DNA of 64,000 bases from Maribacter sp. PR1 (lineage in GTDB: Bacteria; Bacteroidota; Bacteroidia; Flavobacteriales; Flavobacteriaceae): assembly GCF_028464145.1 (NCBI RefSeq), contig NZ_JAQPCG010000001.1, positions 496,001 through 560,000 of the forward strand. The letters run 5' to 3'. Position numbers and translations under genes: made by a program. Below, in pieces: positions 45,532 through 61,162 of the stretch. The notes beneath the pieces were generated by a model. That model was not told the origin of the DNA. It made no database searches and saw only the letters and a list, made by a program, of their open reading frames with translations. How positions within the stretch are numbered: the stretch's first letter is position 1; the number at the start of each line of letters is the position of its first letter.

Positions 45532-45759
45532 ATGAAAGATTCTATTTACGTTTGGGTATTGATTACAACCTTGGCACTAGTAACGGTAACTATTATGTCG
45601 GTCATGAACTTCCCCTTTAATTGGGTATTTTATGGTACCATTTTAGGACAAACACTTATAATTTTTATGGTGTATAAGGTATTGACCGAAAACTATAGCA
45701 CAAACAAGACCTTCGAAGATTTTTATGAAGACGCACCTATTGGCGATAGGCTTAATTAG
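45532..45759 (+). CDS. Small two-span membrane protein, unknown function
   Basis: 75 residues: hydrophobic helices at about 7-24 and 30-49, then a charged tail ending FEDFYEDAPIGDRLN. No family recognised. Its 3' end overlaps the convergent universal stress protein gene by 8 bp. Position next to the cbb3 oxidase island suggests, but does not show, a respiratory connection. Confidence 0.65.
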   Translation: MKDSIYVWVLITTLALVTVTIMSVMNFPFNWVFYGTILGQTLIIFMVYKVLTENYSTNKTFEDFYEDAPIGDRLN

Positions 45760-46657
45760 ACATTAGAACATTATCTCGATTATTCGTTTCGGTAAAATTA
45801 GAGGCCATACCCAATTCTGGAATTACCAACAAAGGTATTTGCGTATGAAAGGCAACCCTTTTTACAACAGGCTCCCTGATTAATTGTTCCATATAACTGT
45901 GTTGATAGTTCAACATGGCCAAAAGATGAATATCCATTTCTTTGGAGAATAGTTCCAATGTTTTTGAAATGGAGTTCAATTCCGAAACGGTATGGACATA
46001 GTGCTCTACATCGCCCAAATACTTGCGTAACATATCCAAATTAAATTGCTGAAGTTCCGTTAAGGTTTTTATTTGGTATTGAACATGAACAATCCGTACC
46101 GTAGCATCAAATAGTTTTGCCAACTCGATCAGTGGTCTCAGTTCCGACTTAGTATAAAATCGTGTAAAGTCAGTAGCAAAGGCAATCTCCGTCGGTTTTT
46201 TAAAATCAAAATTTTGGGGTATGGCCAATACAGGACAATCCTTTACGGATTTTATGACCCGTACTGCATTACTTCCCATAAACACCTCTTCCATTCCGGT
46301 TGCGCCCGTTGTTCCCATGATAACTAAATCAATGTTGTGGGTGGATATACTTTCTAAAACCTCATCTACCAACAGACTAAATGATGATATAGTTTTAAAA
46401 TGATGCTTTTCATTGTTGAATTCCTTTTTAACTCGAATTAAAAGGTCATCCAATCCTTTTTTAGAATACTTTGCAGCGCTATTGGCCATCATATTTTCCT
46501 CAAAAGAGGCAGCCATGAATCGACTTCCGGCAATAGCAGGGGTATAGGTATTCAATAAATGAAAATTACATTCCTGACCCCAAAACATGGATATCGCATA
46601 CCGCAAGGCATTACATGAATTCTCTGAAAAGTCTGTGGGTATTAAAATATTTTTCAT
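45752..46657 (-). CDS. Tandem-domain universal stress protein
   Basis: 301 residues with two UspA-like domains (about 1-145 and 150-290). Domain 1 starts MKNILIPTDFSENSCNALRYA and carries the nucleotide-binding-type loop MGTTGATGMEEVFMGSNA; domain 2 is more divergent. Its promoter has an Fnr-type box and -7 element in the same geometry as the cbb3 genes, so induction under low oxygen is inferred, as known for several Usp proteins in other bacteria. Confidence 0.85.
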   Translation of the reverse strand: MKNILIPTDFSENSCNALRYAISMFWGQECNFHLLNTYTPAIAGSRFMAASFEENMMANSAAKYSKKGLDDLLIRVKKEFNNEKHHFKTISSFSLLVDEVLESISTHNIDLVIMGTTGATGMEEVFMGSNAVRVIKSVKDCPVLAIPQNFDFKKPTEIAFATDFTRFYTKSELRPLIELAKLFDATVRIVHVQYQIKTLTELQQFNLDMLRKYLGDVEHYVHTVSELNSISKTLELFSKEMDIHLLAMLNYQHSYMEQLIREPVVKRVAFHTQIPLLVIPELGMASNFTETNNRDNVLMSN

Positions 46658-46681
46658 CCAATTTCATCTTTTTAACGATGA

Positions 46682-46724
46682 TAAAATTAGATGGCTTAGC
46701 CAAAGCAAACTATGACATATGTCA
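46682..46724 (-). promoter_or_regulatory. Fnr-type box and -7 element upstream of usp
   Basis: Palindrome TGACATATGTCA (46713-46724) and minus-strand TAATTTTA (46689-46682). The box centre is 33.5 bp upstream of the first T of TTTA, identical to four other promoters here. The usp start codon is 24 bp downstream of the -7 element. Confidence 0.75.
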
Positions 46725-46743
46725 GCTTTTAAAATTAGTGCAG

Positions 46744-47433
46744 TTAAAAACCTTCAACCAAGTTATTCAAGGCTTTTTCATCGATGATACCAATTCTTTT
46801 TCCAGAAGTCTTTAGATATCCTTTTTTCTTGAATTCGGATATAATTCGGATACAGGATTCAATCGCTGTGCCTACAACATTGGAAATATCCTCCCTAGAG
46901 AGTACCAATTTCAAATAACCCTCTTCGTCCTCCCCAAAATTAGTCTTCAAGTAGATAAAGGCCTCGGCAATACGTTGTTTTACGTTTTTTTGGCTCATGT
47001 TCACGATAACATCATCCGCTTCTTTTAAATCGTGGGCCATATGCCTTAAAACCTCTAATGTAAAATTGGGATTGGTATGTAATGTAGAAACAATCCCATC
47101 TTTTGGGATAAAACATACTTCCATATCACTTACGGCGACCGCGCTTAAGTTTACACTTTCTTCCGCTACTACGGAGCGTTGACCAATTACTTCACCTTTA
47201 CTGGCCAATTTCACAATTTGATCCTTCCCGTTGGCACTTAATTTGGATAGTTTGGAAATACCATCACGAACACAAAATACACCGTCCAGTTTTTCACCTT
47301 CCCTAAAAATAGATTCGCCTTTTTTAATGGTTTTTGTAGTTTTTGAATCGGATACCCGCTTTAGTTCTTCCTTGGACATAGCCCGCAAGGAGTTGAACTG
47401 ACGGACAATACAATTTTCACATCTGCTTTCCAT
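46744..47433 (-). CDS. Crp/Fnr family regulator, probable oxygen-responsive activator of the cbb3 island
   Basis: 229 residues from ATG 47433; a GTG at 47469 is in frame but lies at the promoter. Cyclic-nucleotide-binding-like beta-roll (about 20-130) and a Crp-type HTH (LSREDISNVVGTAIESCIRI). An N-terminal CxxC (Cys5, Cys8) plus later Cys residues could ligate an Fe-S cluster as in Fnr, but spacing differs from E. coli Fnr, so redox sensing is inferred. It is divergent from ccoI and shares a symmetric box with it, suggesting autoregulation. Confidence 0.85.
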   Translation of the reverse strand: MESRCENCIVRQFNSLRAMSKEELKRVSDSKTTKTIKKGESIFREGEKLDGVFCVRDGISKLSKLSANGKDQIVKLASKGEVIGQRSVVAEESVNLSAVAVSDMEVCFIPKDGIVSTLHTNPNFTLEVLRHMAHDLKEADDVIVNMSQKNVKQRIAEAFIYLKTNFGEDEEGYLKLVLSREDISNVVGTAIESCIRIISEFKKKGYLKTSGKRIGIIDEKALNNLVEGF

Positions 47434-47457
47434 TTCATTCTGATTTACCTGACTTCG

Positions 47458-47531
47458 CAAATTTAACACCTTAAAAGTAGGTAAAAACTGATAATTATCA
47501 TATTTTAAAAGCGATTGAAACTAAACCTTTG
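47458..47531. promoter_or_regulatory. Symmetric divergent promoter with a single Fnr-type box between fnr and ccoI
   Basis: Box TGATAATTATCA (47489-47500, perfect palindrome, centre 47494.5). On the minus strand TAAATTTG (47465-47458) has its TTTG starting 33.5 bp from the centre; on the plus strand AACCTTTG (47524-47531) has its TTTG at the same 33.5-bp distance. One box can therefore act as a class II activator site in both directions. The plus-strand -7 element lacks the initial TA. Confidence 0.8.
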
Positions 47532-47554
47532 CCCTAGGTATTAGCAAATGGATT

Positions 47555-49951
47555 ATGGAAAAGCAAAACTGTTATCACTGTGGTGACGATTGCGGTTCCG
47601 ATTGTATTGAATATGACCAAAAATGCTTCTGTTGTAACGGCTGCAAAACGGTATATGAGATTTTTTCGGAAAACAATCTTTCCTATTATTATGATCTTCA
47701 ATCTTCCGCAGGGTCTACTCCTGCAAAAATTGAGGGGAAATATGACTTTCTAGAAACGGAGAGTATTGTTGAACGGTTGACGGAGTTCAATGATGGCAAT
47801 ATTCAAATTGTAAACCTCTATATACCCTTAATTCATTGCAGTTCCTGTATTTGGATCCTTGAAAACATGAACAAACTGAACCTGTTCATTAGTTCTTCCC
47901 AAGTAAATTTTTCTGAAAAAACAGTCCGTATCACTTACAACTGTCGAAAAACAACTTTAAAGGAGGTCGTACTTTTACTTGCCAAAATTGGATATGAACC
48001 CTATATATCGTTAGAGGATTTTGATGGTAAGAAGAAACAGATAGACCGCAGCCTAATCTACAAACTTGGAGTGGCGGGCTTTGCATTTGGCAACGTAATG
48101 TTCTTATCCTTTCCAGAATATTTTGATTTGAATTCAAGTGAAGCTGCAGGCGGTGAGTTTTGGCTCAACCAATACCAAAGCGTATTTAGATGGTTAATGT
48201 TTGCCTTTTCCTTACCGGTCGTTTTCTATGCAGGATCAGACTATTTCATATCCGCCTATAAAGGATTACGCTCTAAAATTTTAAATATTGATGTCCCCAT
48301 AGCCTTAGGTGTTCTTGTACTTTTTTTAAGGAGTACCTTGGAAATAATTTTTGATTGGGGAAGTGGTTTTTTCGACTCGCTTACCGGGCTGGTCTTTTTC
48401 TTATTGCTGGGCAAGTTCTTCCAACAAAAAACCTACTCCTTCCTTTCTTTTGAAAGGGATTATAAGTCTTATTTCCCCATAGCCGTAACTCGAATCAACA
48501 AAGACGGAAAAGAAGAGAGCACCCAAGTTCATGAAATTAAACAAGGAGATAGACTACTCATTAGAAATGAGGAACTTATTCCTGTTGATGGTGTTCTTTT
48601 TAAAGGAAGGGCACAAATCGACTATAGTTTCGTTACCGGAGAATCTGTACCGGTCGAAATTGAATTTGGAGACAAAGTCTTTGCCGGTGGCCGACAAATG
48701 AACGGTTCAATAGAGGTGGAAGCCTTAAAATCTGTTTCGCAAAGTTACCTCACCCAACTCTGGAGCAACTCGGTCTTTAAAACGGATAAATCAACCCGAT
48801 TCCAAACGATTACGGACAGTATTGGCAAAAGATTTACTGTAGGAGTTCTTACAGTAGCGTTTCTTGCAACGTTTTTTTGGCTATTCCAAGACCCTAGCCG
48901 AGCAATGAATGTCTTTACGGCCGTACTCATTATTGCATGCCCTTGTGCCATTGCGTTGGCCTCACCCTTCACTTTGGGAAACATGCTACGTATTTTTGGA
49001 CAGAAGAAATTTTACCTTAGGGATACTAATGCCTTAGAGCAATTAGCAAGGGTAGATACCGCAATTTTTGACAAAACAGGTACCATTACCACGGCAAAAA
49101 GAAGTACGGCCACGTATGAAGGTATGCCATTGACCCAAGAAGAAGAATCACTTCTTAAAAATACACTTCGCGCTTCGAATCACCCTTTAAGCAGAACATT
49201 ATATGATATACTGTCAGATTACAATATAATTACATTGGACGATTATGAAGAACATTTAGGTAAAGGTCTGGAAGGAAGTAAAGGGGACAAATATATCAAA
49301 ATAGGTTCTTCAGAATTTGTGGGTAACATGGAGGTATCCGATAGTCTGAATACAGCGGTTCACGTTGCCAGTAATAACAGCTACAAAGGCAAGTATGTTT
49401 TTCACAATGAATATAGGGAAGGGGTTTCAAAAGTATTCGAAGAAATGTCAGATGCTCTACAGCTCGCTATTTTATCAGGAGACAACGAAGGAGAAAAAGC
49501 AAACCTGGAAAAATTGTTGCCAAAACTTACTCCTTTGTATTTCAATCAAAAACCGGAAGACAAACTAGCTTTTATCACTTCACTTCAAGACCAAGGCAAA
49601 AAAGTATTGATGGTCGGGGACGGATTAAATGACGCAGGGGCATTGGCTCAAGCAGAAGTAGGTATTGCCATCTCGGAAAACATCAACGTTTTTTCACCAG
49701 CCTGCGATGGTATCATGGATGCATCAAAATTCAAACAGCTATACCAATATATTGTGGCTTCCAAAAAAGCTATGAAAATTATAAAACTTAGTTTTTTATT
49801 GTCACTACTCTATAACGTGGTGGGCCTTTATTTTGCTGTCACGGGTCAATTAGAACCTGTAATCGCCGCCATTTTAATGCCCTTAAGTTCTATAAGTGTT
49901 GTTGTATTTACCACGGTAATGACCAATCTTTTAGGAAGAAAATTGGATTGA
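47555..49951 (+). CDS. ccoI: Copper-transporting P1B-type ATPase CcoI/FixI
   Basis: 798 residues. N-terminal Cys-rich metal-binding region with CxxxxCFCCNGC (up to Cys30) and a second domain with HCSSC (94-98), then eight predicted membrane helices including CPC (IIACPCAIALASPFTLG), phosphorylation motif DKTGTIT, and GDGLNDAGALAQA. The N-terminal Cys cluster identifies the FixI/CcoI branch that exports copper for insertion into cbb3 oxidase. It leads the cbb3 genes and is transcribed from the divergent Fnr-type promoter. Confidence 0.92.
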   Translation: MEKQNCYHCGDDCGSDCIEYDQKCFCCNGCKTVYEIFSENNLSYYYDLQSSAGSTPAKIEGKYDFLETESIVERLTEFNDGNIQIVNLYIPLIHCSSCIWILENMNKLNLFISSSQVNFSEKTVRITYNCRKTTLKEVVLLLAKIGYEPYISLEDFDGKKKQIDRSLIYKLGVAGFAFGNVMFLSFPEYFDLNSSEAAGGEFWLNQYQSVFRWLMFAFSLPVVFYAGSDYFISAYKGLRSKILNIDVPIALGVLVLFLRSTLEIIFDWGSGFFDSLTGLVFFLLLGKFFQQKTYSFLSFERDYKSYFPIAVTRINKDGKEESTQVHEIKQGDRLLIRNEELIPVDGVLFKGRAQIDYSFVTGESVPVEIEFGDKVFAGGRQMNGSIEVEALKSVSQSYLTQLWSNSVFKTDKSTRFQTITDSIGKRFTVGVLTVAFLATFFWLFQDPSRAMNVFTAVLIIACPCAIALASPFTLGNMLRIFGQKKFYLRDTNALEQLARVDTAIFDKTGTITTAKRSTATYEGMPLTQEEESLLKNTLRASNHPLSRTLYDILSDYNIITLDDYEEHLGKGLEGSKGDKYIKIGSSEFVGNMEVSDSLNTAVHVASNNSYKGKYVFHNEYREGVSKVFEEMSDALQLAILSGDNEGEKANLEKLLPKLTPLYFNQKPEDKLAFITSLQDQGKKVLMVGDGLNDAGALAQAEVGIAISENINVFSPACDGIMDASKFKQLYQYIVASKKAMKIIKLSFLLSLLYNVVGLYFAVTGQLEPVIAAILMPLSSISVVVFTTVMTNLLGRKLD

Positions 49952-49983
49952 CCATAAAAAGGATAGCATAAAATTTTTAAAAC

Positions 49984-50026
49984 TGATAAATGTCATATTT
50001 AAAAGGAATCATCAACGGTAATTTTA
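49984..50026 (+). promoter_or_regulatory. Fnr-type box and -7 element upstream of ccoS-ccoNO
   Basis: TGATAAATGTCA (49984-49995) and TAATTTTA (50019-50026); the box centre is 33.5 bp from the first T of TTTA. Flanking sequence AAACTGATAA...TCATATTTAAAAG also matches that at the ccoI box, pointing to common descent or extended recognition. Confidence 0.78.
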
Positions 50027-50045
50027 CCCCGAAATTCAGGTAGGT

Positions 50046-50249
50046 ATGAGTGTAATTTATGTGTTATTGGCCATTAGTATAACGGTCGCAATTGTGTTTT
50101 TTATCGCATTTATCCTTTCGGTAAAAAACGGTCAATATGATGACTCTTATACGCCATCTGTAAGAATGCTTTTTGAAGATGAGCTTGTTAAACAGAAAAA
50201 GGATTTACAGCAATCTAATTTGGATACATCAATAGAATCAAATAACTAA
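50046..50249 (+). CDS. ccoS: cbb3-type oxidase assembly protein CcoS
   Basis: 67 residues: one membrane helix (about 3-25) followed by a conserved polar stretch (VKNGQYDDSYTPSVRMLFED), the CcoS/FixS pattern. CcoS is needed for cofactor insertion into the catalytic subunit. Ends 6 bp before ccoNO. Confidence 0.9.
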   Translation: MSVIYVLLAISITVAIVFFIAFILSVKNGQYDDSYTPSVRMLFEDELVKQKKDLQQSNLDTSIESNN

Positions 50250-50255
50250 TCAACT

Positions 50256-52457
50256 ATGGAAGTACAGCAGTTTTATTACGATAACAAAATCGTAAAAAAG
50301 TTTATTTACGCCACAATGCTCTGGGGCATTGTTGGTATGTCCGTTGGCCTTTTATTGGCTTTTATGTTCCTGTTCCCGAATGTTACGGACGGAATTTCAT
50401 GGCTAAGTTTTGGTCGTTTAAGACCATTGCACACGAACGCGGTCATCTTCGCCTTTGTAGGTAATGCAATTTTTGCCGGTGTTTATTACTCAACACAGCG
50501 GCTTTTGAAAGCAAGAATGTTCAGTGACATTCTTAGTAACATAAACTTTTGGGGCTGGCAATTGATTATCGTTGCCGCGGCAATTACACTTCCTTTAGGC
50601 TTTTCTACCTCAAAGGAATATGCCGAACTGGAATGGCCCATAGATATTGCCATTGCCATTATATGGGTTGCTTTCGGTGTTAACCTTATTGGTACAATGA
50701 TCAAAAGAAGACAGCGCCATTTATATGTTGCCATTTGGTTCTATTTGGCCACATTTGTAACGGTAGCTGTTCTTCACATTTTCAATAGTTTGGAATTACC
50801 CGTGAGTGCATTAAAAAGTTATTCGGTGTATGCTGGTGTACAGGATGCTTTGGTACAGTGGTGGTACGGACACAATGCCGTGGCCTTTTTCTTAACCACT
50901 CCATTTTTGGGGCTTATGTATTATTTTGTGCCTAAAGCAGCGAACAGACCCGTTTATTCCTATAAACTGTCTATTGTTCACTTTTGGTCCTTGATATTTA
51001 TTTATATCTGGGCAGGACCTCATCACTTGTTATATTCTGCCTTACCAGATTGGGCACAAAACCTTGGAGTCGCTTTTTCAGTGATGCTCATTGCGCCATC
51101 CTGGGGTGGTATGATCAACGGTCTATTGACCTTAAGAGGTGCTTGGGACAAGGTTCGTACGGATCCTACTTTAAAGTTTATGGTAGTAGCTATTACAGGC
51201 TACGGTATGGCAACTTTTGAGGGCCCTATGCTATCCTTGAAAAATGTAAATGCCATTGCGCATTTCAGCGACTGGATTATAGCACACGTACATGTTGGAG
51301 CTTTGGCTTGGAACGGATTCCTAACCTTTGGTATGATTTATTGGTTGGTACCTAAAATGTTTAAGACCCGATTGGCATCTACGGGATTGGCCAACTTCCA
51401 TTTCTGGATTGGAACTTTAGGAATTATATTATACGCTCTTCCAATGTATGTTGCCGGGTTTACACAAGCTTTGATGTGGAAGGACTTTAATCCAGATGGA
51501 ACGTTAGTGTACGGTAACTTCTTGGAAACGGTAAACGAAATAATGCCTATGTATTGGATGAGGGCCATTGGCGGTAGTCTTTACATTGTTGGTGCTCTTG
51601 TCATGGTCTATAATGTTGTAGTTACCATAAAATCAGGTCAAAAAGTTGAGGATGAATTGGCAGAAGCAGCAGCACTTACAAGGGTTTCTAAAAGTAGAAC
51701 TGCTGGTGAAACATTCCACACCTGGTTGGAACGTAAACCGATACAATTAACAATTTTGGCTACGGTAGCCATCCTTATTGGAGGTATCATCCAAATTGTA
51801 CCCACGATTCTGGTAAAATCAAATATACCAACCATCACCAGTGTAAAACCATACACGCCATTGGAACTTGAAGGTAGAGACCTTTATATTCGAGAGGGTT
51901 GTGTGGGCTGTCACTCTCAAATGGTCAGACCTTTTAGAAGTGAGGTTGAGCGATATGGGGAATACGCCAAAGCTGGGGAGTTCGTTTATGACCATCCATT
52001 CTTATGGGGAAGTAAAAGAACAGGTCCGGACTTATTAAGGGTCGGTGGCAAATACACGGACAACTGGCACTTAAACCATATGTACGATCCACAGACCACT
52101 TCCTCTGGTTCTATTATGCCATCCTATTCTTGGTTAATAAGAAACAAGCACGATCGCAGCGGGATTAGGGAAAAGATGGAGGCCATGGTCACCTTGGGAG
52201 TTCCTTACACCGAGGAAGACATTGCCAATGCTGAGGCCAACATGAACGAGCAAGCTACACAAATAGAGAAAAACCTATATAGCGATCCGGATTTTGCTTC
52301 CACATATGAGGCGGATAAAAAATATGCCGCTGAAAATGGAGAAGAATTCGTAGAGATGCGAGATAGAGAAATTGTATCCTTGATTGCCTACCTACAGCGA
52401 TTGGGAACAGATATTAAGATAAAAGAAACAAACGAACTAATCTCAGAAAACAAATAA
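50256..52457 (+). CDS. ccoN: Fused cbb3-type cytochrome c oxidase subunits I and II (CcoNO)
   Basis: 733 residues. The first about 480 residues are CcoN with many membrane helices and the haem/copper ligands, e.g. LRPLHTNAVIF, WWYGHNAVAFFLTTPFLG and HVHVGALAWNGF. The C-terminal part is CcoO with one membrane span (about 495-515) and a single c-type haem site CVGCH (about 549-553) followed by QMVRPFRSEVERYG. In proteobacteria these are two genes; fusion is usual in Bacteroidota. It reduces oxygen with high affinity while pumping protons. Confidence 0.95.
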   Translation: MEVQQFYYDNKIVKKFIYATMLWGIVGMSVGLLLAFMFLFPNVTDGISWLSFGRLRPLHTNAVIFAFVGNAIFAGVYYSTQRLLKARMFSDILSNINFWGWQLIIVAAAITLPLGFSTSKEYAELEWPIDIAIAIIWVAFGVNLIGTMIKRRQRHLYVAIWFYLATFVTVAVLHIFNSLELPVSALKSYSVYAGVQDALVQWWYGHNAVAFFLTTPFLGLMYYFVPKAANRPVYSYKLSIVHFWSLIFIYIWAGPHHLLYSALPDWAQNLGVAFSVMLIAPSWGGMINGLLTLRGAWDKVRTDPTLKFMVVAITGYGMATFEGPMLSLKNVNAIAHFSDWIIAHVHVGALAWNGFLTFGMIYWLVPKMFKTRLASTGLANFHFWIGTLGIILYALPMYVAGFTQALMWKDFNPDGTLVYGNFLETVNEIMPMYWMRAIGGSLYIVGALVMVYNVVVTIKSGQKVEDELAEAAALTRVSKSRTAGETFHTWLERKPIQLTILATVAILIGGIIQIVPTILVKSNIPTITSVKPYTPLELEGRDLYIREGCVGCHSQMVRPFRSEVERYGEYAKAGEFVYDHPFLWGSKRTGPDLLRVGGKYTDNWHLNHMYDPQTTSSGSIMPSYSWLIRNKHDRSGIREKMEAMVTLGVPYTEEDIANAEANMNEQATQIEKNLYSDPDFASTYEADKKYAAENGEEFVEMRDREIVSLIAYLQRLGTDIKIKETNELISENK

Positions 52458-52459
52458 CC

Positions 52460-52651
52460 ATGCTCAAATTTGTAAAAGGATATATGGAAAACATTGAGGG
52501 GGTAGCCACCTACCCAATGTTATCATTATTGATTTTCTTCGTCTTTTTTGTATTACTGTTTTGGTGGGTCTTCACCGCATCCAAGGATTACATTAAAGAA
52601 GTAAGTGAGATTCCATTAGAGAATAACAACCAACAAAATATTGAATTATGA
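52460..52651 (+). CDS. ccoQ: cbb3-type oxidase subunit CcoQ
   Basis: 63 residues with one membrane helix (about 19-40: LSLLIFFVFFVLLFWWVF), starting 2 bp after ccoNO and overlapping ccoP by 4 bp. Size, position and topology match CcoQ, which stabilises the core complex; sequence conservation is low. Confidence 0.85.
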   Translation: MLKFVKGYMENIEGVATYPMLSLLIFFVFFVLLFWWVFTASKDYIKEVSEIPLENNNQQNIEL

Positions 52652-53631
52652 AGAATCTAGGACCTTGGTGGATTAGACTTCCACTACTCTTTTTTGCGAC
52701 TTTTGGATTGATGGAGTTTTTCATTGACTCGGGAGACAAACCGGCATTTATTGAATATCCAATCGCGTCTTTATTCTTGGGGTTTATTTTACTACTCCTT
52801 ATTGGAATAGAGTTAATCTTGGCCTCCATTGAAAATGTAATGTACCAAACGCTATCAGATGAGGCAAAAGAACGCTACTTGGCCTCAAAGGAAAAAGGAA
52901 CGGAATGGACTTGGGGAAAAAAGACCTACAAAAATTTATTGGGGTCTAAGCCTATTGAAGCTGAAGGGGAAATCATCTTGGACCATAATTATGACGGTAT
53001 TCGAGAACTGGACAATAAATTACCACCGTGGTGGGTCTATATGTTCTATGCGACCATCATTTTTGGTTTGGTTTATTTAGTCAGATTCCACGTTTTCAAC
53101 GATTATGATCAAGATACCGAATACTTAACGGAAGTCACCCTTGCGGAAGCCGAAATAGCGGAGTACAAAAAGAATGCTAAAGATTTGGTGGATGTGAACA
53201 CTGTTGAACTATTAACCGATGCCTCTGATATTGCCGCTGGCAAGGCTGTTTTTGAATCTAACTGTGTTGCCTGTCATATGGCAGATGGTGGAGGAGGAAT
53301 TGGTCCAAATCTTACGGACCAGAACTGGATATTGGGCGGTGATATTAAAACGGTCTTCAATACCATTTCAGAAGGAGGACGAGACGGTAAAGGGATGATT
53401 GCTTGGAAACAAAGCCTTAAACCCGTAGAAATGGCTCAGGTAGCAAGTTATGTCTTGAATTTTCAAGGAACCACCCCTGCAAATCCAAAAGCACCGGAAG
53501 GGGATATTATCATAAGTCCACATATGAATGTTGAAGGTGCCCCAGCCGTAGACTCTGTAAAAATAGAGGTTGAAGTGGACAGTTTGGAGTTTATTAAATC
53601 CATTGACGAGGAAGGTACTGTAATAAAGTAA
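52648..53631 (+). CDS. ccoP: cbb3-type oxidase subunit III, monohaem CcoP
   Basis: 327 residues with membrane helices at about 10-30, 37-58 and 130-150, then a cytochrome c domain with one CVACH (about 206-210), axial Met in GKGMIAWK and AQVASYVLNFQGT. Only one CxxCH is present, against two in the classical dihaem CcoP. The N-terminus is longer with two extra spans before the conserved PPWW anchor helix. It passes electrons to CcoNO. Confidence 0.92.
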   Translation: MKNLGPWWIRLPLLFFATFGLMEFFIDSGDKPAFIEYPIASLFLGFILLLLIGIELILASIENVMYQTLSDEAKERYLASKEKGTEWTWGKKTYKNLLGSKPIEAEGEIILDHNYDGIRELDNKLPPWWVYMFYATIIFGLVYLVRFHVFNDYDQDTEYLTEVTLAEAEIAEYKKNAKDLVDVNTVELLTDASDIAAGKAVFESNCVACHMADGGGGIGPNLTDQNWILGGDIKTVFNTISEGGRDGKGMIAWKQSLKPVEMAQVASYVLNFQGTTPANPKAPEGDIIISPHMNVEGAPAVDSVKIEVEVDSLEFIKSIDEEGTVIK

Positions 53632-53640
53632 CGGTATCAA

Positions 53641-53782: not shown

Positions 53783-55201
53783 ATGGCACAGGATCAAGAA
53801 AACTTTAGGGATTCCATAGGAACTATAAACGAGGAAGGAAAAAGGGCTTGGGTCTTTCCCAAGAAACCAAGTGGGAAATTTTATGAATATCGGAAATATG
53901 TTAGTTACTTTCTATTGGCATTTCTATTCGCCGCACCATTTGTAAAGATTAATGGCAACCAATTTTTAATGTTCAATGTGTTGGAACGTCGTTTCAATAT
54001 ATTTGGATTTCCTTTTTGGCCTCAAGATTTTCATCTGTTCGTTATCTCCATGATAATTGGGGTGATATTCATTGCACTATTCACAGTTGCCTTTGGCCGT
54101 ATTTTCTGTGGTTGGATGTGTCCGCAGACTATTTTCATGGAGATGGTCTTTAGAAGAATCGAATATTGGATAGATGGGGACCGTGGTGCCCAGATGAAAT
54201 TGGACAGGCAGCCATGGAACGCAGAAAAAATAAGAAAACGAGTACTTAAGTGGATTATATTCTTCATCATATCGTTCCTTATAGCTAATGTTTTCCTGGC
54301 TTATCTCATTGGAAGTGACCGATTGATAAGATATGTCACGGAAGGACCTTTTCAACATTTAAGCACGATTGTCTCCCTTCTTATATTCACCGGGGTTTTC
54401 TACTTTGTTTTTGCTTGGTTCAGGGAGCAGGTATGTATCATAGCATGTCCCTATGGTAGAATGCAAGGGGTTTTGCTAGACAATAAGTCCATCATCGTGG
54501 CCTACGACCATAAACGAGGTGAAGCAGAGAACGGAAGAAAGAAATGGAGAAAAAATGAGGACAGAAAGGAACTTGGTTATGGTGACTGCATCGATTGCTC
54601 ACAGTGTGTAAACGTTTGCCCTACCGGAATCGACATTAGAAACGGAACACAATTAGAATGCGTTAATTGTACTGCCTGTATTGATGAATGTGATACCATT
54701 ATGGAAAAGGTTAACCTTCCCAAAGGTTTGATCAGGTATGCCAGTGAGAATGAAATAACAAAGAAGGAAAAGTTCAGATTCACCCCAAGGTTAAAAGGCT
54801 ATTCCGCAGTGCTCGTAATTTTAATTGGCGTATTGGTGGGTATGATGTTCTTAAGAAATAATTTGGAAGCTAACATCTTAAGATTGCCAGGACAACTTTA
54901 TGAGCATAAGGAAGGTAATATCATTAGTAATGTATACACTTACAAATTGATAAACAAAACCACCAAGGATGTAGAAGACGTAAGTTTCAAACTTATGTCG
55001 CACAAAGGTACTGTGAAATTGGTCCGAAATGAAAACTTTGAAGTGCCTGCCCAAGACTTGGCAGAAGGAACACTTTTTATCGAAATCAACAATGCGGCCA
55101 TAAAAAGTGACAAAGAAAAATTGAAAATTGGAGTATATAGTGGAGATAAGCTCATAGAGACCACCATGTGCTCTTTTATGGCGCCTAGAAGCTATAATTG
55201 A
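53783..55201 (+). CDS. ccoG: cbb3 oxidase assembly protein CcoG (FixG/RdxA), 4Fe-4S
   Basis: 472 residues. Membrane helices at about 38-55, 85-108, 155-175, 195-212 and 340-358; Cys motifs CGWMCPQT and CIIACPYGRMQG; two ferredoxin-type clusters CIDCSQCVNVCP and CVNCTACIDECD; a C-terminal Ig-like FixG domain (about 370-472). CcoG reduces copper for delivery to the oxidase. It starts 151 bp after ccoP and continues into ccoH. Confidence 0.93.
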   Translation: MAQDQENFRDSIGTINEEGKRAWVFPKKPSGKFYEYRKYVSYFLLAFLFAAPFVKINGNQFLMFNVLERRFNIFGFPFWPQDFHLFVISMIIGVIFIALFTVAFGRIFCGWMCPQTIFMEMVFRRIEYWIDGDRGAQMKLDRQPWNAEKIRKRVLKWIIFFIISFLIANVFLAYLIGSDRLIRYVTEGPFQHLSTIVSLLIFTGVFYFVFAWFREQVCIIACPYGRMQGVLLDNKSIIVAYDHKRGEAENGRKKWRKNEDRKELGYGDCIDCSQCVNVCPTGIDIRNGTQLECVNCTACIDECDTIMEKVNLPKGLIRYASENEITKKEKFRFTPRLKGYSAVLVILIGVLVGMMFLRNNLEANILRLPGQLYEHKEGNIISNVYTYKLINKTTKDVEDVSFKLMSHKGTVKLVRNENFEVPAQDLAEGTLFIEINNAAIKSDKEKLKIGVYSGDKLIETTMCSFMAPRSYN

Positions 55202-55224
55202 CTAGTAAAATTAAAACAAAGGAT

Positions 55225-55671
55225 ATGAAAATTAATTGGGGAACCGGAATTGTATTAGCATTTATTGGCTTCATAAGCTTCATCATGTTCTTTGTCATAA
55301 AAATGAATTCCGATAGAAGGGCCAACCACGATTTGGTTACAGAGGATTATTACAGACAGGAGCTTGCCTATCAAAAAGAGATAGATGCCCAAAACAATGC
55401 AACAAACGACATTGTTAATCTAGAATTGAAGAAGCAGGCAAATGGCCTTCAAATTGTTTTTCCAAAAAATTTGGACCCAAATAAAATTCAAGGAACAGTG
55501 TCCCTATACAGACCATCTAATAAGCAATTGGATTTTGACTTACCCATAAGTTTGTCCAATAACCATTTGCTCATACCTGACAAGCGCTTGTTGGATGGTC
55601 GCTGGGACATTAAAGTTAATTGGGTATATAATGGCAAGGAATATTTACACAAGGAAAATATTACATATTAA
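55225..55671 (+). CDS. ccoH: cbb3 oxidase assembly protein CcoH (FixH)
   Basis: 148 residues from ATG 55225, chosen over an in-frame TTG at 55198 that would overlap ccoG by 4 bp. One N-terminal membrane helix (about 5-24), then the FixH-type region NSDRRANHDLVTEDYYRQEL and a periplasmic beta domain (PNKIQGTVSLYRPS). CcoH helps assemble the oxidase with CcoI. It ends 3 bp before the SafE-like gene. Confidence 0.88.
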   Translation: MKINWGTGIVLAFIGFISFIMFFVIKMNSDRRANHDLVTEDYYRQELAYQKEIDAQNNATNDIVNLELKKQANGLQIVFPKNLDPNKIQGTVSLYRPSNKQLDFDLPISLSNNHLLIPDKRLLDGRWDIKVNWVYNGKEYLHKENITY

Positions 55672-55674
55672 ATC

Positions 55675-56379
55675 ATGTTACTCTCCGCACTAATATTAGG
55701 ATTTATGGGAAGTCTGCATTGCGTTGGCATGTGTGGACCCATTGCCTTTATGTTACCCGTGGATCATTCTAATAATCTCAAAAAGGCAGCGCAAGTAAGC
55801 CTTTATCATTTGGGTAGATTATTGGCTTATGGCATAATAGGTCTCGTATTTGGCATTTTGGGAAAAGGACTTTATGTCTTTGGAATGCAGCAAAAACTAT
55901 CTGTCGCTATTGGTATTTTTATGATTATCCTGGTTCTTATTCCAGCTAAAGTTCTGAATAGATTCCATATCAGTCGCCCTGTGTATAAAGTTTTTTCCAA
56001 AATTAAGAGTAGGTTGGGTAAGGAGTTTAAAAAGAAAACATCGGACACATTCCTTACCATTGGCTTTCTAAACGGCTTCCTTCCATGTGGATTGGTATAT
56101 ATGGCCCTATTTGGTGCAATAGCTATGGGCAATATTGTACAAGGAAGTGCCTATATGGTTTTGTTCGGCTTGGGTACCGTTCCGTTAATGACAAGTGCAG
56201 TTTACTTTAGTGGTTTGTTAAAAGGAGGAATTAAAAAGCGTGTTCAAAAATTGATACCTGTATTTATAGTAATTATGGGAGCACTTTTTATCCTCCGAGG
56301 ACTTGGTTTGGGGATTCCTTACGTTTCACCGAAACCAGTTACAGAAATAGCCTCTTCCCAAATGGAATGTCACCCTTGA
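55675..56379 (+). CDS. Sulfite exporter TauE/SafE-like (CcoI-associated) membrane protein
   Basis: 234 residues, six or so membrane spans, with family motifs GSLHCVGMCGP near the N-terminus and GFLNGFLPCGLVYMAL. The HCxGMCGP and PCGxVY Cys/His motifs suggest copper binding, and members are regularly found next to ccoGHIS genes, so a role in copper handling for cbb3 assembly is more likely than sulfite export. Tight spacing to ccoH (3 bp) supports one operon. Confidence 0.82.
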   Translation: MLLSALILGFMGSLHCVGMCGPIAFMLPVDHSNNLKKAAQVSLYHLGRLLAYGIIGLVFGILGKGLYVFGMQQKLSVAIGIFMIILVLIPAKVLNRFHISRPVYKVFSKIKSRLGKEFKKKTSDTFLTIGFLNGFLPCGLVYMALFGAIAMGNIVQGSAYMVLFGLGTVPLMTSAVYFSGLLKGGIKKRVQKLIPVFIVIMGALFILRGLGLGIPYVSPKPVTEIASSQMECHP

Positions 56380-56386
56380 ACAATAC

Positions 56387-56875
56387 ATGAAAAAACTTCC
56401 CAATGATATCGTCCTAAGGCCTAGATTTCAACTGGAAACACTAGGAAATAGAGCGTTATTATTGAGAAAATTTGTAGAGGCTAAAAAGGACCCATTTCTT
56501 ATTAAATGTCTAGACAACCACATATTCATAAAATACAATAAACAGGCCACCCATTTTGGATCTCCGCAACTTCATTTGGAGATAGATGCCATCGACGACA
56601 AGAACTCAAAAATCTATGGTTTCTTTGGGCCAAACCCAACATTATGGACATTTTTTATGTTTCTCCATTTCATTGTGGCTACCTTGTTTATAATTCTTGG
56701 AATTTGGGCCTATGTCAGTGCTTCATTGAATAAAACATACGGATTACAAATAGGATTGATGGCTTTTTTAATTTTCATATGGATCGCCTTATATATTTTT
56801 GGTCAAATGGGCAAAAGGAAAGGAAAGCCTCAAATACAGGAACTTTATGCCTTCATGATGGAAACTTTGGCATAG
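56387..56875 (+). CDS. Conserved membrane protein of unknown function downstream of cbb3 genes
   Basis: 162 residues, no family recognised. The soluble N-terminal about 85 residues contain LRPRFQLE and LIKCLDNHIFIKYNK; two membrane helices follow at about 88-112 and 118-138, and a short basic tail. It sits 7 bp after the SafE-like gene and its stop abuts the truncated haemoglobin start, so it is within the operon. Confidence 0.65.
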   Translation: MKKLPNDIVLRPRFQLETLGNRALLLRKFVEAKKDPFLIKCLDNHIFIKYNKQATHFGSPQLHLEIDAIDDKNSKIYGFFGPNPTLWTFFMFLHFIVATLFIILGIWAYVSASLNKTYGLQIGLMAFLIFIWIALYIFGQMGKRKGKPQIQELYAFMMETLA

Positions 56876-57295
56876 ATGGAGAACTTAAAATCATCTAAAA
56901 TGGATAGCAAACCAACCTTGGATAACAGAAAAGATGTTTCGTTCCTCGTTAGATCCTTTTACCGCAAAATCCGTAAGGATGATACTTTGGGTCCAATCTT
57001 TAACGGAATTATCAAGGATTGGGATGCGCATTTAGAACTATTGACCGACTTTTGGGAATCCCAATTGTTCTTGAAAAGAAAATATTCAGGTGACCCGATT
57101 AAGGCCCATCAGAGAACCGATGATTTCATGGGAAATACCATGACCATGGAACACTTTGGCATATGGTTAAACCTTTGGTTCGCCACCATAGATGAGCTTT
57201 TTTCAGGAGAAAATGCTTGGATAGCAAAAAATAGGGCAAGAAAGATGAACACCATGTTGTTCATGAAAATATTTGAACATCGCAATCCTAGGTAA
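56876..57295 (+). CDS. Group III truncated haemoglobin
   Basis: 139 residues of the 2-over-2 globin fold: FLVRSFYRKIRKDDTLGPIF, WDAHLELLTDFWESQLF and the proximal-His region KAHQRTDDFMGNTMTMEHFGIWLNLW. It starts immediately after the preceding stop codon. Group III members often accompany microaerobic respiration and may bind oxygen or nitric oxide, in line with its place at the end of the cbb3 operon. Confidence 0.88.
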   Translation: MENLKSSKMDSKPTLDNRKDVSFLVRSFYRKIRKDDTLGPIFNGIIKDWDAHLELLTDFWESQLFLKRKYSGDPIKAHQRTDDFMGNTMTMEHFGIWLNLWFATIDELFSGENAWIAKNRARKMNTMLFMKIFEHRNPR

Positions 57296-57439
57296 ACTAT
57301 TTTGGAAGGGGCGATAAGATTTTAAATGAAAACTTTTAGACATTTCGGTGCAAGCTGCAGATCATTTAAATCTCGATTATCACCTAAAATTCCTTATTTT
57401 TAAAATCATTGAGATTTAAAAACCAATTTAATACAGACC

Positions 57440-58831
57440 ATGAGCAACAATAACTCCCGGAGGTCCTTTATAAAAAAGGCTACCTTAACTTCAGCTGCCG
57501 TAACCTCAAGCCCATACATATTCGCTTCCTCGTTCGAGGAAAAACTAATGCTTACAAGAAGTTATACCTCACAAAATTTTAGCGCCAATGACAAAATTAA
57601 CCTAGCCTTGATTGGTACGGGAATCCAAGGCATTTATGATACCCAAACCGCACTACGGGTCGATGGAATAGAATTAGTAGCCGCATGTGATCTGTATACA
57701 GGTCGTCTGGCCCGAGCTAAAGAACTTTGGGGAGATTCTATTTTTACTACTCGGGACTATAGGGATATTTTAAACAGAAGGGATGTAGATGCCGTTATAA
57801 TAGCAACACCGGACCATTGGCATCAAAAGATTACAGTTGATGCGTTGAAGGCCGGGAAGCATGTTTATTGTGAAAAACCTATGGTGCAGAATCCTGAGGA
57901 GGGTGAGGCCATTATCAAAACTCAAAAAGAAACGGGTAAAATCTGTCAAATTGGAAGTCAAGGAATGTCTTCCTTGGGGAACGAAAAGGCGAAACAGTTA
58001 TATGAAGAAGGGGCCATTGGTGATATCGTGATGTTGGATATGTATAATGATAGATATTCCGCAGAAGGTGCCTGGCAGTACCCTATTCCACCGGATGCAA
58101 ATCCAGAAACGGTGGACTTTGACACCTTTCTTGGCAACGCACCGAAGCGACCATTTGAGCCCAAGCGTTTTTTTCGTTGGAGGAACTATCAGGATTACGG
58201 TACCGGTGTTGCCGGTGACTTGTTCGTACATGCATTTTCTACGTTAAATCATGTTATAAGTTCAAAAGGTCCCAACAGAGCTTTGGCAACAGGTGGGTTA
58301 AGATATTGGAAAGACGGACGTGATGTTCCAGATGTATCCATAACCCTATATGACTACCCCAAAACTGATACCCATGCTGCCTTCAATGCAGCCTTTAGAA
58401 TCAACTTCATTGCGGGTAGTGGAGGTGGCGGTGGATTTAAGCTAATTGGTACGGAGGGTGAAATGGAGGTCGGCCAGAATTCAGTTTCGGTAAAGCGCTC
58501 TAAACTGAATATGATTCCCCAAGGTTATTCCATGGTTTCCTTTACCGAAGAGATGCAAGAAAAAATCCGCAAAGGGTATATCAAGGAAAACCTAGAACCA
58601 AGGTCTTCGGCGCTTAGTACTGGAACCACTACCTGGGAAGCCGAAAGGGATTATAAAGGCGGACATTACGACCATTTTAATAACTTTTTTACGGCAATAC
58701 GAGACAAGGGCTCTGTAATAGAAAATCCCACTTTTGGATTAAGAGCGGCGGGGGCAGCGCTTTTGGCCAATGAAAGCTACTATAAAAAGCAACCCGTAAA
58801 TTGGGACCCGGTAAAAATGCTTTTAACATAA
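57440..58831 (+). CDS. Tat-exported Gfo/Idh/MocA family oxidoreductase
   Basis: 463 residues. A twin-arginine signal RRSFIKK (7-13) precedes a hydrophobic segment and the Rossmann domain (NLALIGTGIQGIYDTQTALR). Then come EKPMVQNPEEGEAI, with the conserved Glu-Lys-Pro, and a C-terminal sugar-binding domain. These enzymes use NAD(P) or retained NADH to act on sugars. Tat export means the folded protein leaves with its cofactor. It has its own 144-bp upstream spacer and ends in a hairpin terminator. Confidence 0.85.
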   Translation: MSNNNSRRSFIKKATLTSAAVTSSPYIFASSFEEKLMLTRSYTSQNFSANDKINLALIGTGIQGIYDTQTALRVDGIELVAACDLYTGRLARAKELWGDSIFTTRDYRDILNRRDVDAVIIATPDHWHQKITVDALKAGKHVYCEKPMVQNPEEGEAIIKTQKETGKICQIGSQGMSSLGNEKAKQLYEEGAIGDIVMLDMYNDRYSAEGAWQYPIPPDANPETVDFDTFLGNAPKRPFEPKRFFRWRNYQDYGTGVAGDLFVHAFSTLNHVISSKGPNRALATGGLRYWKDGRDVPDVSITLYDYPKTDTHAAFNAAFRINFIAGSGGGGGFKLIGTEGEMEVGQNSVSVKRSKLNMIPQGYSMVSFTEEMQEKIRKGYIKENLEPRSSALSTGTTTWEAERDYKGGHYDHFNNFFTAIRDKGSVIENPTFGLRAAGAALLANESYYKKQPVNWDPVKMLLT

Positions 58832-58832
58832 G

Positions 58833-58854
58833 AAAGGGTGTTTTCACACCCTTT
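58833..58854. terminator. Bidirectional terminator between convergent genes
   Basis: Stem AAAGGGTGT / ACACCCTTT (58833-58841 / 58846-58854) with loop TTTC, directly after the oxidoreductase stop codon and 38 bp before the end of the convergent usp gene. Confidence 0.8.
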
Positions 58855-58891
58855 ATCAACTAACTAAAAACTGTGATTATATTAACCTCAA

Positions 58892-59713
58892 CTAAATCTT
58901 AAAGGTTATCACAGGTAAGTTTGCATGGTTAGCAATATCTTCGCCTATACTTCCCATGAAAAAGTGGGACAGGCCTTTTCTTCCGTGGGTGGGAACACCT
59001 ATCATATCGGCGTTGCTCTCCATCCCAAAATTCAATACTCCTCTTTCAACATTGTAGTCATTGTAAATGGCGATAAGAAGTTCGAAACCAACCAAATCAC
59101 AAAAGGATTTTATTCGTTTTTGAATTTCCGCCGTACTTAAAAAATCATCTCCAGGAGTATTAATATACACAAGTTTAAGTTCTGCAGAAAAACCATCCGC
59201 TATGGCCTTGGCCCTTTGAAGGGCATGTATATTTTCATTCCTTAAATCACAGGCAAAAACCATTTGTTTGGGATTAAAATCTTTCATTTTGGACTTAATC
59301 ACCAGTACGGGAATATCTGAATTTCTAACTACCTTTTCCGTATTGGAGCCTACGAACATTTCTTTGAGACCATCTGCACCTTGACTTCCCATTACAATTA
59401 AATCTGCATCGTTTTCTTCGGCTACGCTACTTATTTCACCAAAAACCTTATAGTGTTTGATGATAGGCTCAACCTTAACGCCTTCTAAATAGGGTTTGTC
59501 CAAGAACTCATTCAATCTTTTCTCTGCCAGTTTTATCAAGAAAACAGTTTGTTCCGGATGAAAACCTTCGGTGGAGGTCAACATGGCCTGATTTAACTCC
59601 AGCATGTGTAGCACATAAAGAGTGGCATCATTTTTTTTGGCTATAGCAGCAGCAACTTCAAAGGCATATTCGGATATTTCTGAAAAATCTATCGGAACTA
59701 TAATACTTTTCAT
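58892..59713 (-). CDS. Tandem-domain universal stress protein downstream of hemN
   Basis: 273 residues with two UspA domains. Domain 1 starts MKSIIVPIDFSEISEYAFEVA and has the loop MGSQGADGLKEMFVGSNTEK; domain 2 keeps GVPTHGRKGLSHFFMGSIGED, a better match to the ATP-binding loop than the other usp in this window. Start is 26 bp after the hemN stop codon on the same strand, so it is probably expressed from the hemN Fnr-type promoter. Confidence 0.85.
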   Translation of the reverse strand: MKSIIVPIDFSEISEYAFEVAAAIAKKNDATLYVLHMLELNQAMLTSTEGFHPEQTVFLIKLAEKRLNEFLDKPYLEGVKVEPIIKHYKVFGEISSVAEENDADLIVMGSQGADGLKEMFVGSNTEKVVRNSDIPVLVIKSKMKDFNPKQMVFACDLRNENIHALQRAKAIADGFSAELKLVYINTPGDDFLSTAEIQKRIKSFCDLVGFELLIAIYNDYNVERGVLNFGMESNADMIGVPTHGRKGLSHFFMGSIGEDIANHANLPVITFKI

Positions 59714-59738
59714 AACAGGTATGTATTAGGTTAAACAA

Positions 59739-61100
59739 TTAGATTGTCATTGAAAACAATCTGGTTTCGGGAGTCTTTTCATGTAATTTTAGGTCAAAAG
59801 CCATACAAATATTCCTAACGAATGGTCTTCCCTTTTCGGTAATTTTTAATTCATAGGCGGTCATTTCCAAAAGACCGTCCTCCCTCATTTCCTTCAATCT
59901 ATCCATAACATTCGGAAGTGTTTTGAATTGTGCGGATTCACTGAACCAAATAGTTTCCAATTGACACATTAAGTTAAGAATATGTTTTCTGATGACCATA
60001 TCCTCATCACTTAAAATATGCCCTCTAAAAATGGGGATAATATTGTTTTCTACTAAATGTTGATACTCCTCCAAACCCTTAACATTTTGAGCGAAACCAT
60101 ACCAGCTATCACTTATGCTGGAAGCACCCAAACCGACCATTAATTGAGTTTTTGAAGCTGTATAACCCATAAAATTCCTATGTAGGTTTTGATCACGCAT
60201 GGAATGATAAAGACTATCTGTTTTTAATGCAAAATGATCCATTCCTATTTCTACATATCCTGCTTTGGCCAGCTCCAGTTTTCCTGCTTCGTACTGCTCT
60301 CGTTTTTCTTCTGCCGATGGCAAGTCTGAATCTTTATAACCTCGCTGTCCATTACCCTTGAGCCAGGGAACATGAGCGTAGCTATAGAATGCCAACCGGT
60401 CCGGCATTAAGGCTTTTGTTTTTTCTATAGTTTCCAGGACATGATTCAAAGTTTGATGTGGTAACCCAAATATAATATCATGACCAATGGATGTATATCC
60501 TATCTCTCGGGCCCAATCCGTTACATTTTTAACATTCTCGAAGGACTGTACTCTATTTATGGCCTTTTGTACGGTTTCATTATAATCCTGAACGCCAAAA
60601 CTCACTCTTCTAAAACCAACATTGTACAAAGCCTGTAAATGTTCCCTAGTGGTATTATTGGGATGACCTTCAAAACTAAATTCATATGCTTCAGCCTTAT
60701 CCGCCTTTCTAAAAAGGCCGTTGATAAGCATTGTCAAATTCTCCGGACTAAAAAATGTTGGTGTACCACCGCCCAGATGTAACTCTTTAATAATGGGCCT
60801 TTCATCAAAAAGTTCAAGATATAGAGACCATTCTTTTAATAGTGTTTTAATGTATGGAACCTCAACGTCATGCCTTTTGGTTATTCGCTTGTGGCATCCA
60901 CAAAACGTACACATATTTTCACAAAATGGTAAATGAATATATAGACTAATACCTTCCTTAGAATTGGATTCAGAGAAACTCTGTCGTACCGTAGCTTCCC
61001 ATTTTTTTCCAGAAAAAGAATTTATATCCCAAAATGGTACCGTGGGATAACTGGTATATCTAGGACCCGGTATATTGTATTTTTGAATAAGACTGCACAT
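59739..61100 (-). CDS. hemN: Oxygen-independent coproporphyrinogen III oxidase
   Basis: 453 residues. N-terminal GPRYTSYPTVPFW is typical of genuine HemN; the radical-SAM motif is in YIHLPFCENMCTFCGCHKR (CxxxCxxCxC), followed by LHLGGGTPTFF. It converts coproporphyrinogen III to protoporphyrinogen IX without oxygen. Its promoter carries the best Fnr-type box plus a perfect TAATTTTG -7 element, in keeping with induction at low oxygen. This makes haem for the cbb3 oxidase when oxygen-dependent HemF cannot work. Confidence 0.94.
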   Translation of the reverse strand: MCSLIQKYNIPGPRYTSYPTVPFWDINSFSGKKWEATVRQSFSESNSKEGISLYIHLPFCENMCTFCGCHKRITKRHDVEVPYIKTLLKEWSLYLELFDERPIIKELHLGGGTPTFFSPENLTMLINGLFRKADKAEAYEFSFEGHPNNTTREHLQALYNVGFRRVSFGVQDYNETVQKAINRVQSFENVKNVTDWAREIGYTSIGHDIIFGLPHQTLNHVLETIEKTKALMPDRLAFYSYAHVPWLKGNGQRGYKDSDLPSAEEKREQYEAGKLELAKAGYVEIGMDHFALKTDSLYHSMRDQNLHRNFMGYTASKTQLMVGLGASSISDSWYGFAQNVKGLEEYQHLVENNIIPIFRGHILSDEDMVIRKHILNLMCQLETIWFSESAQFKTLPNVMDRLKEMREDGLLEMTAYELKITEKGRPFVRNICMAFDLKLHEKTPETRLFSMTI

Positions 61101-61119
61101 AATTGGTTCTATGAATACA

Positions 61120-61162
61120 CAAAATTAATTCTAGCTTGTCTTTTAAAACATGATAATTATCA
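61120..61162 (-). promoter_or_regulatory. Fnr-type box and -7 element upstream of hemN
   Basis: Perfect palindrome TGATAATTATCA (61151-61162) and minus-strand TAATTTTG (61127-61120); box centre to first T of TTTG is 33.5 bp. The downstream flank ATGTTTTAAAAG matches the ATATTTTAAAAG flank at the ccoI box. Confidence 0.82.

Follow-up and report, generated by a model that had tools for sequence, protein, structure and literature searches.

The 64-kb stretch of the Maribacter sp. PR1 genome (4,727,315 bases) analyzed here, hereafter the window, carries genes for a universal stress protein (usp), an Fnr-type regulator (fnr), a heavy-metal P-type ATPase (ccoI), the cbb3 oxidase operon opened by ccoS and ccoNO, and an oxygen-independent coproporphyrinogen III oxidase (hemN). 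The predicted promoters of usp, fnr, ccoI, ccoS and hemN all contain a palindromic box, TGAYN4RTCA, at one exact distance from a candidate -7 element (Table 1). Seven such boxes occur in the window; four (46713, 47489, 49984 and 61151) have this spacing, and those at 7126, 20846 and 34736 lack it. From the box centre to the first T of the TTTR motif the distance is 33.5 bp in all five promoters, with box 47489 used on both strands, and TTTR starts at 1.8% of positions on the plus strand of the window. Box 49984 is mismatched at 2 of 6 palindromic pairs and the other three boxes at none. The four palindromes named in the original prediction are all present as written. Its further claim, a -7 element at the same distance in five promoters, holds for TTTR in each of them, whereas the full TAnnTTTR is found in four, the ccoI element being degenerate with A replacing T at -12. 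The predicted leaders of the five promoters are 15–20 nt long, counted from the predicted transcription start site (TSS). The longest open reading frame (ORF) of fnr opens at GTG 47469. Since this codon lies upstream of the predicted TSS, ATG 47433 is the likely fnr start.

Table 1. Boxes, predicted promoter elements and genes in the window
Feature	Coordinates	Strand	Details
usp box TGACATATGTCA	46713..46724	-	-7 TAATTTTA at 46682-46689; predicted TSS 46677; usp start 46657; 20-nt leader
Box TGATAATTATCA common to fnr (-) and ccoI (+)	47489..47500	both strands	
fnr -7 TAAATTTG	47458..47465	-	predicted TSS 47453 by analogy with PMC9723704; ATG 47433; 20-nt leader
ccoI degenerate -7 AACCTTTG	47524..47531	+	predicted TSS 47536; start 47555; 19-nt leader
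ccoS-ccoNO box TGATAAATGTCA	49984..49995	+	-7 TAATTTTA at 50019-50026; predicted TSS 50031; ccoS start 50046; 15-nt leader
hemN box TGATAATTATCA	61151..61162	-	-7 TAATTTTG at 61120-61127; predicted TSS 61115; hemN start 61100; 15-nt leader
usp, universal stress protein, predicted target	45752..46657	-	PF00582
Fnr-type regulator, 229 aa	46744..47433	-	cNMP_binding and HTH_Crp_2, both Pfam models above cut-off
ccoI, heavy-metal (copper-type) P-type ATPase, predicted target	47555..49951	+	name from place beside cco
ccoS, 67 aa, opens cco operon	50046..50249	+	name from position and size
ccoNO fusion, cbb3 oxidase subunits I/II	50256..52457	+	NF011053 above cut-off
hemN, oxygen-independent coproporphyrinogen III oxidase, predicted target	59739..61100	-	TIGR00538 above cut-off

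We defined a strict site as a TGAYN4RTCA box, a gap of 23 and TAnnTTTR, and a near-strict site as one in which at least 5 of the 6 specified -7 positions agree. The genome was scanned for the box followed by N13–33 and TAnnTTTR (21 gaps), with the reversed pattern and the other spacings as controls. Among 46 matches, 28 fall at gap 23, whereas the other 20 gaps share 18, or 0.9 each (Poisson P of about 7e-32); the reversed pattern gives 6 matches over all 21 gaps. The original prediction held that five equal spacings were unlikely by chance, and genome-wide the matches are far commoner than chance, as judged by the reversed-pattern and other-spacing controls rather than by shuffled intergenic DNA. 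The same preference is seen in the best 80 of 181 loci around Fnr relatives, which are 76–93% identical and mutually dependent. Gap 23 gives 221 full matches in these loci, compared with 0–3 for each other gap from 1 to 60, except gaps 9 (7 matches) and 17 (12 matches); gap 0 gives 35. Eight scrambled half-sites gave 0–1 matches at gap 23 and up to 11 at one other gap. Among 60 Flavobacteriaceae genomes, one per genus, the strict pattern occurs 873 times and its reverse 28 times, at least one strict site is present in 58 of the 60, and each other gap from 18 to 28 yields 55.5 matches. The genome, 80-locus and 60-genus counts together rule out a coincidence of five spacings.

Conservation extends to the individual promoters. 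In per-gene counts whose denominators keep loci without a box, and which accept -7 elements with at least 5/6 positions, the box and -7 element precede usp in 77 of the 79 near-relative loci holding its start, fnr in 68/80, ccoI in 74/79, and ccoN, through ccoS, in all 73 loci holding the ccoN start. The hemN start lies inside none of the 80 loci; strict sites before hemN relatives are found in three of the family genomes (G017, G056 and G059). Beyond the 60 genera, a phylum-wide draw of 148 genomes was scanned. Strict and reversed matches numbered 192 and 10 in 13 further Flavobacteriaceae genomes, several of which share a genus. The 2 genomes from a second family of the order had 22 and 0, the 20 genomes from the other orders in the class had 98 and 8, and the 111 genomes outside the class had 68 and 15. 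The signal is therefore strong among Flavobacteriaceae, weaker across the class and marginal at greater distance.

The promoter nature and base composition of the sites were assessed on 88 gap-23 sites from four genomes. Scored at position 20 of each site rather than at the box centre, 5 of these 88 sites fall within an ORF of 150 aa or more, as against 14 of 21 sites with other gaps in the fetched stretches. An ORF of 60 aa or more begins with an ATG 10–30 nt past the predicted TSS at 46/88 gap-23 and 5/21 other-gap sites, and the leader measures 14–25 nt in 42 of the 64 gap-23 sites with an ATG-opened ORF 5–59 nt after the predicted TSS. By these measures the gap-23 sites resemble promoters. 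Positions specified by the search pattern say nothing about composition, but the free ones do: the base preceding TGA is A in 0.68, C in 0.25 and T in 0.05 of the 88 sites, the base following the box is T in 0.88, and T stands two bases further on in 0.68. The originally proposed consensus, TGAyAwATrTCA, about 23 bp and TAATTTTR, is better written ATGAYN4RTCAT + 22 bp + TAnnTTTR. The E. coli-type FNR box TTGATN4ATCAA is not matched in the 88 sites, with T so rarely before TGA. Little information is carried by the positions of the 88 sites that lie past the T-rich beginning of the spacer and before the -7 element. A rival explanation is descent of a few duplicated promoters from a shared ancestor, with the spacing kept without selection, and some usp promoters may be copies of one another. 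The 23-bp spacers differ, however, their middle positions are nearly uninformative, and many gene families lie downstream, so that we find this explanation extremely improbable.

Class II activators in E. coli and other phyla act from position -41.5. In Flavobacterium psychrophilum the sigma-A -7 box is given as -12 to -5 (excerpt of PMC9723704), a register that would set the centre of the present box at -41.5, the class II position. As at class II promoters, a single box-to--7 spacing prevails (28/46 matches in the genome; 873 versus 55.5 in the 60 genera), and the class II Crp/Fnr arrangement with fixed spacing put forward in the original prediction is strongly supported by the genome, 80-locus and 60-genus counts. 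Repressor or roadblock sites, at which a regulator over the -33 region represses transcription in air, would also account for a box that abuts this region, and T is over-represented at -35 and -33 in the 88 sites. One exact spacing is, however, not needed for repression, and -41.5 is the position of activation in other phyla. The cbb3 oxidase and haem synthesis genes are moreover induced under oxygen limitation in F. psychrophilum (excerpt of PMC9723704), but the release of a repressor when oxygen falls would have the same effect. We consider repression quite unlikely.

The regulon reaches well beyond the window and is not compact, as had been supposed: 17 of the 28 strict sites in the genome lie in one island on contig C18 (212–315 kb), where they span 221.9–308.9 kb, or about 90 kb. 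These sites precede, among others, genes for Usp proteins, an L,D-transpeptidase, MlaE, YtxH, a patatin, a P-type ATPase, PfkB, a WG-repeat protein and HPF, and one lies 189 bp from the gene of a response regulator in which a receiver domain is joined to a Crp-type output (REC-Crp). Near-strict sites (5/6) in the same region precede genes for Hsp20, an M50-CBS protease, DUF302 and ROK proteins. Elsewhere in the genome, strict sites stand before ferritin-like Dps-type, ArsR-family and HlyD-type efflux genes. Several strict sites (C1:118350, C18:221906, C18:308826 and C19:127908) are questionable because they sit within an ORF or at a long distance from a start. A box is also found on C18 before a PNPOx-like gene that is followed on the same strand by PPDK, Pta and AckA genes (C18:278458-284912). 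The low-oxygen programme may extend to acetate fermentation. The genome scan proposed at the outset, for other anaerobic or haem genes behind such sites, recovered a nos operon. At C22:224448, a gap-23 box precedes the cytochrome c gene that opens this operon (NosZ with nos_propeller), and the opposite strand has a near-strict site facing an Rrf2-family gene. Reduction of nitrous oxide (N2O) may thus belong to the same regulon. The C18 cluster was also considered as a denitrification island; this was rejected, as its content is Usp, Hsp20 and PfkB and the nos genes sit on C22.

Five proteins in the genome exceed the cut-off for HTH_Crp_2: the window Fnr, a truncated relative on C22, two REC-Crp proteins and one protein whose recognition helix is of another kind. 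E-x-x-I-R is common to the recognition helices of the first four. The receiver, cNMP and HTH architecture of REC-Crp is assigned by Pfam for one of the two, and for the other it was read from the sequence and a full-length match. The truncated relative (C22:249065-249526) is 58% identical to the window protein over residues 79–226 and lacks the CxxC part. Of the 60 genera, 37 have an Fnr orthologue (E below 1e-60), and REC-Crp occurs in at least 25, counted as full-length rows among the matches listed. The number of boxes covaries with both regulator types, with medians per genome of 27.5 where both are present (n=14), 10 with Fnr only (n=23), 15 with REC-Crp only (n=11) and 1 with neither (n=12). 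Five of the last group have no HTH_Crp_2 match and 0–2 sites. Divergent Fnr-like proteins with CxxC and E-x-x-I-R were noted in G020 (2.2 Mb) and G043 (1.7 Mb). The covariation suggests that the window Fnr-like protein is not the sole candidate reader and that the REC-Crp response regulators also track the boxes. The two regulator types seem to read one shared code, which goes beyond the claim of the original prediction.

The genes behind the boxes were compared in three genomes, with 30 of 34 sites read in G056 (REC-Crp only) and 30 of 32 in G017 and G059 (both Fnr only). In G056, boxes precede relatives of Usp, Hsp20, PfkB, HPF, YtxH, PPDK, ROK, MlaE, DUF302, ccoNO and hemN. Boxed relatives of ccoNO and hemN are likewise found in G017 and G059, and G017 further has boxes before relatives of the nos cytochrome c, Rrf2 and Pta genes. 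None of the boxed genes of G017 and G059 matched a labelled island Usp, although many of them had no match and were not put through a Pfam search; one boxed gene of G059 matches an unlabelled island ORF at 30%. For 28 of the 60 sites in the three genomes, there is no match among the fetched proteins of the Maribacter genome, or a match without a Pfam label. In these three genomes, the stress island seems to go with REC-Crp. Since ccoNO and hemN relatives are boxed in G056, these genes too could be under REC-Crp control there. This finding, together with the 7–34 sites kept by each REC-Crp-only genome, would also fit a scheme in which the boxes belong to the REC-Crp response regulators alone and the window Fnr-like protein binds something else. 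The 23 Fnr-only genomes, however, have sites as well (median 10, against 1 with neither regulator), in G017 before cco, hemN and nos relatives, and the fnr promoter itself is boxed in 68 of the 80 near-relative loci, which makes an exclusive role of REC-Crp unlikely.

The Fnr-like protein has the domain order of FNR, a cNMP-like sensor domain followed by HTH_Crp. It contains CENC near its N-terminus, Cys66, Cys119 (numbering from GTG) and the recognition helix IESCIR. In an alignment with A. fischeri FNR, the CxxC motif and VCFIP (VCEIP in FNR) match, Cys119 corresponding to the VCEIP cysteine; Cys66 is an extra conserved cysteine relative to FNR. In the wider alignment of 81 rows, 8–9 rows lack core residues because the start-codon rule failed on them. 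The remaining rows conserve Cys17 in 72/73, Cys20 in 73/73, Cys66 in 72/72 and Cys119 in 72/72. The helix position equivalent to CRP R180 is described as correlating with the base before TGA (excerpt of PMC1274295). It is Ile in the window protein and Thr in 67 rows of the alignment, not Arg, which fits a box without G at the base before TGA. The curated Fnr model PRK11161 scores 106.9 bits, below its cut-off of 228, and the AlphaFold model of the protein, with a mean predicted local distance difference test score (pLDDT) of 61, was not used. A Flavobacteriales Crp/Fnr homologue has been assigned to carbon sensing (MalR-like; excerpt of PMC8510549).

Directly upstream of one of the REC-Crp genes, the genome encodes a PAS-PAS-HisKA-HATPase kinase. 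A full-length REC-Crp is found in 24 other genomes, and in all 20 of the loci inspected among them a relative of this kinase precedes REC-Crp. The closest PDB matches of its first PAS domain are the haem-PAS domains of FixL and DosP. The aligned His and Arg, which we take to be the haem-proximal His and the distal Arg, and which haem-free PAS domains may share, are present in the kinase of this genome, and among the 18 of the 20 loci that could be aligned the His is found in 16 and the Arg in 13. Haem binding by the PAS domain is a guess, rather less likely than not.

We therefore propose, with a probability of about 0.8, that these are class II activator promoters read by the Fnr-type protein and by the response regulators. 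A dimeric Crp/Fnr-type activator would bind ATGAYN4RTCAT centred at -41.5, cover the place of the -33 element and recruit RNA polymerase with the Bacteroidota primary sigma factor, which would contact TAnnTTTR at -12 to -5. This last contact would require that the spacing stay at exactly 33.5 bp. Within the window, the role of activator would fall to the adjacent Fnr-type protein, probably autoregulated, which at low oxygen would turn on the high-affinity cbb3 oxidase, the copper pump, anaerobic haem synthesis and Usp. The response regulators with a Crp/Fnr output would read the same cis-code, one of them driven by the PAS histidine kinase encoded beside it, and would extend the regulon to the stress-survival and fermentation island.

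Several observations weigh against this proposal. On the ccoI side of the shared box, the full TAnnTTTR is present in 0 of 74 near-relative loci, most of which have CAnnTTTG (commonest CAAATTTG, 18 loci, and CAATTTTG, 15 loci), whereas the fnr side has the full element in 66 of 68. The -7 element on the ccoI side is thus consistently weakened, and such a lopsided divergent promoter looks selected. In the family-wide comparison, the difference of each regulator group from the genomes with neither (P below 3e-4) is uncorrected for phylogeny or genome size, and 7 of the 12 genomes with neither are of at most 2.2 Mb. G048 (82% complete, 340 contigs) has 29 strict sites, yet the thresholds applied detect neither regulator in it, and E-x-x-I-R is absent from all three of its other Crp-like proteins. 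Conversely, G020, G043, G046 and G051, also without either regulator, have other Crp-like proteins with this helix and 1, 2, 1 and 5 sites, respectively, and hence the helix alone does not track many boxes. Outside the family, G131 has an Fnr-like protein and a Crp protein in a 355-aa frame, and 0 sites. Box composition gave no convincing separation between Fnr-only and REC-Crp-only sites, so that the acting regulator cannot be read from the box.

The sensor raises a further difficulty. Of the four FNR ligand positions, which we take to be Cys20, 23, 29 and 122, three align with cysteines in the window protein, and the third, Cys29, is replaced by Asn; an Fe-S sensor is therefore not certain. 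Because both the four-cysteine comparison and the curated model failed, we do not claim membership in the FNR family proper. The missing ligand would suit a DNR- or HcpR-like sensor that responds to nitric oxide or some other redox signal instead of oxygen, as would the box before nos and the near-strict site before the Rrf2-family gene. Such a signal appears rather unlikely for a protein whose core targets are cco and hemN and whose CxxC and Cys119 are kept in nearly all evaluable relatives. Finally, in F. psychrophilum the genes induced by hypoxia respond to a shortage of iron as well (excerpt of PMC9723704), which would not be expected of a plain Fe-S FNR.

Our comparison with known systems reveals both similarities and differences. 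At class II promoters of E. coli FNR, the activator box is centred at -41.5, where the F. psychrophilum register would place the present box. For Pseudomonas, Anr boxes are described at hemN and ccoN (excerpt of PMC6588701), and the boxes of the window likewise precede cco and hemN. The promoters described here differ from these in the box (ATGAYN4RTCAT instead of TTGATN4ATCAA), in the Bacteroidota -7 element TAnnTTTR at one spacing and in having two apparent kinds of reader. The window protein resembles A. fischeri FNR in domain order, CxxC and the VCEIP-aligned cysteine, and differs in Asn for Cys29, the extra Cys66 and Ile where the FNR helix ETISR has Ser. In rhizobia, the FixL-FixJ-FixK cascade leads from a PAS kinase through a receiver to a Crp/Fnr regulator acting on microaerobic genes. 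A FixL-like PAS kinase, a receiver and a Crp/Fnr output onto such genes recur here, and the kinase gene adjoins the response regulator gene in the genome and in the 20 loci, as do those of FixL and FixJ; by contrast, receiver and Crp/Fnr output are fused in one polypeptide. Many Usp genes, a small heat-shock protein and a phosphofructokinase form part of the low-oxygen programmes of Burkholderia cenocepacia lxa and Mycobacterium tuberculosis DosR (excerpt of PMC6127331). The C18 island is similar in its clustered Usp, Hsp20 and PfkB genes, a likeness drawn from genes and boxes; its predicted reader is REC-Crp, unlike in Burkholderia, for which the same excerpt suggests FixK/FixLJ. HcpR2 of Bacteroides and Porphyromonas is a Crp/Fnr family regulator of the same phylum, with the common motif GTAACN4GTTAC, another motif in P. 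gingivalis, and predicted regulons that consist of hcp only in most Bacteroides (excerpt of PMC1274295). Neither the present box nor its many targets agree with that motif or with a regulon limited to hcp. Among the papers listed in searches of the open-licence literature, which excluded subscription journals and preprints, none describes the box, spacing or regulon in its title or displayed abstract opening.

Taken together, we lean slightly towards the view that Flavobacteriaceae use one hard-wired code, ATGAYN4RTCAT + 22 bp + TAnnTTTR, shared by a one-component Fnr-like sensor and a fused 'FixJ-FixK' with its FixL-like kinase. Lineages would hold one, the other or both of these readers, which together would run a counterpart of DosR and lxa comprising the cbb3 oxidase, N2O reduction, Usp/Hsp20/HPF hibernation and acetate fermentation. 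Bacteroidota regulons are hard to predict because the promoters differ from the E. coli model, and the exact-spacing code offers a low-noise prediction of candidate low-oxygen genes across the family (873 matches versus 28 reversed), including the nos operon. The lineages with one reader or the other represent a natural experiment in regulatory rewiring. If this view is correct, marine flavobacteria would gain a DosR/lxa-like programme of hypoxic survival, as judged from gene content and boxes.

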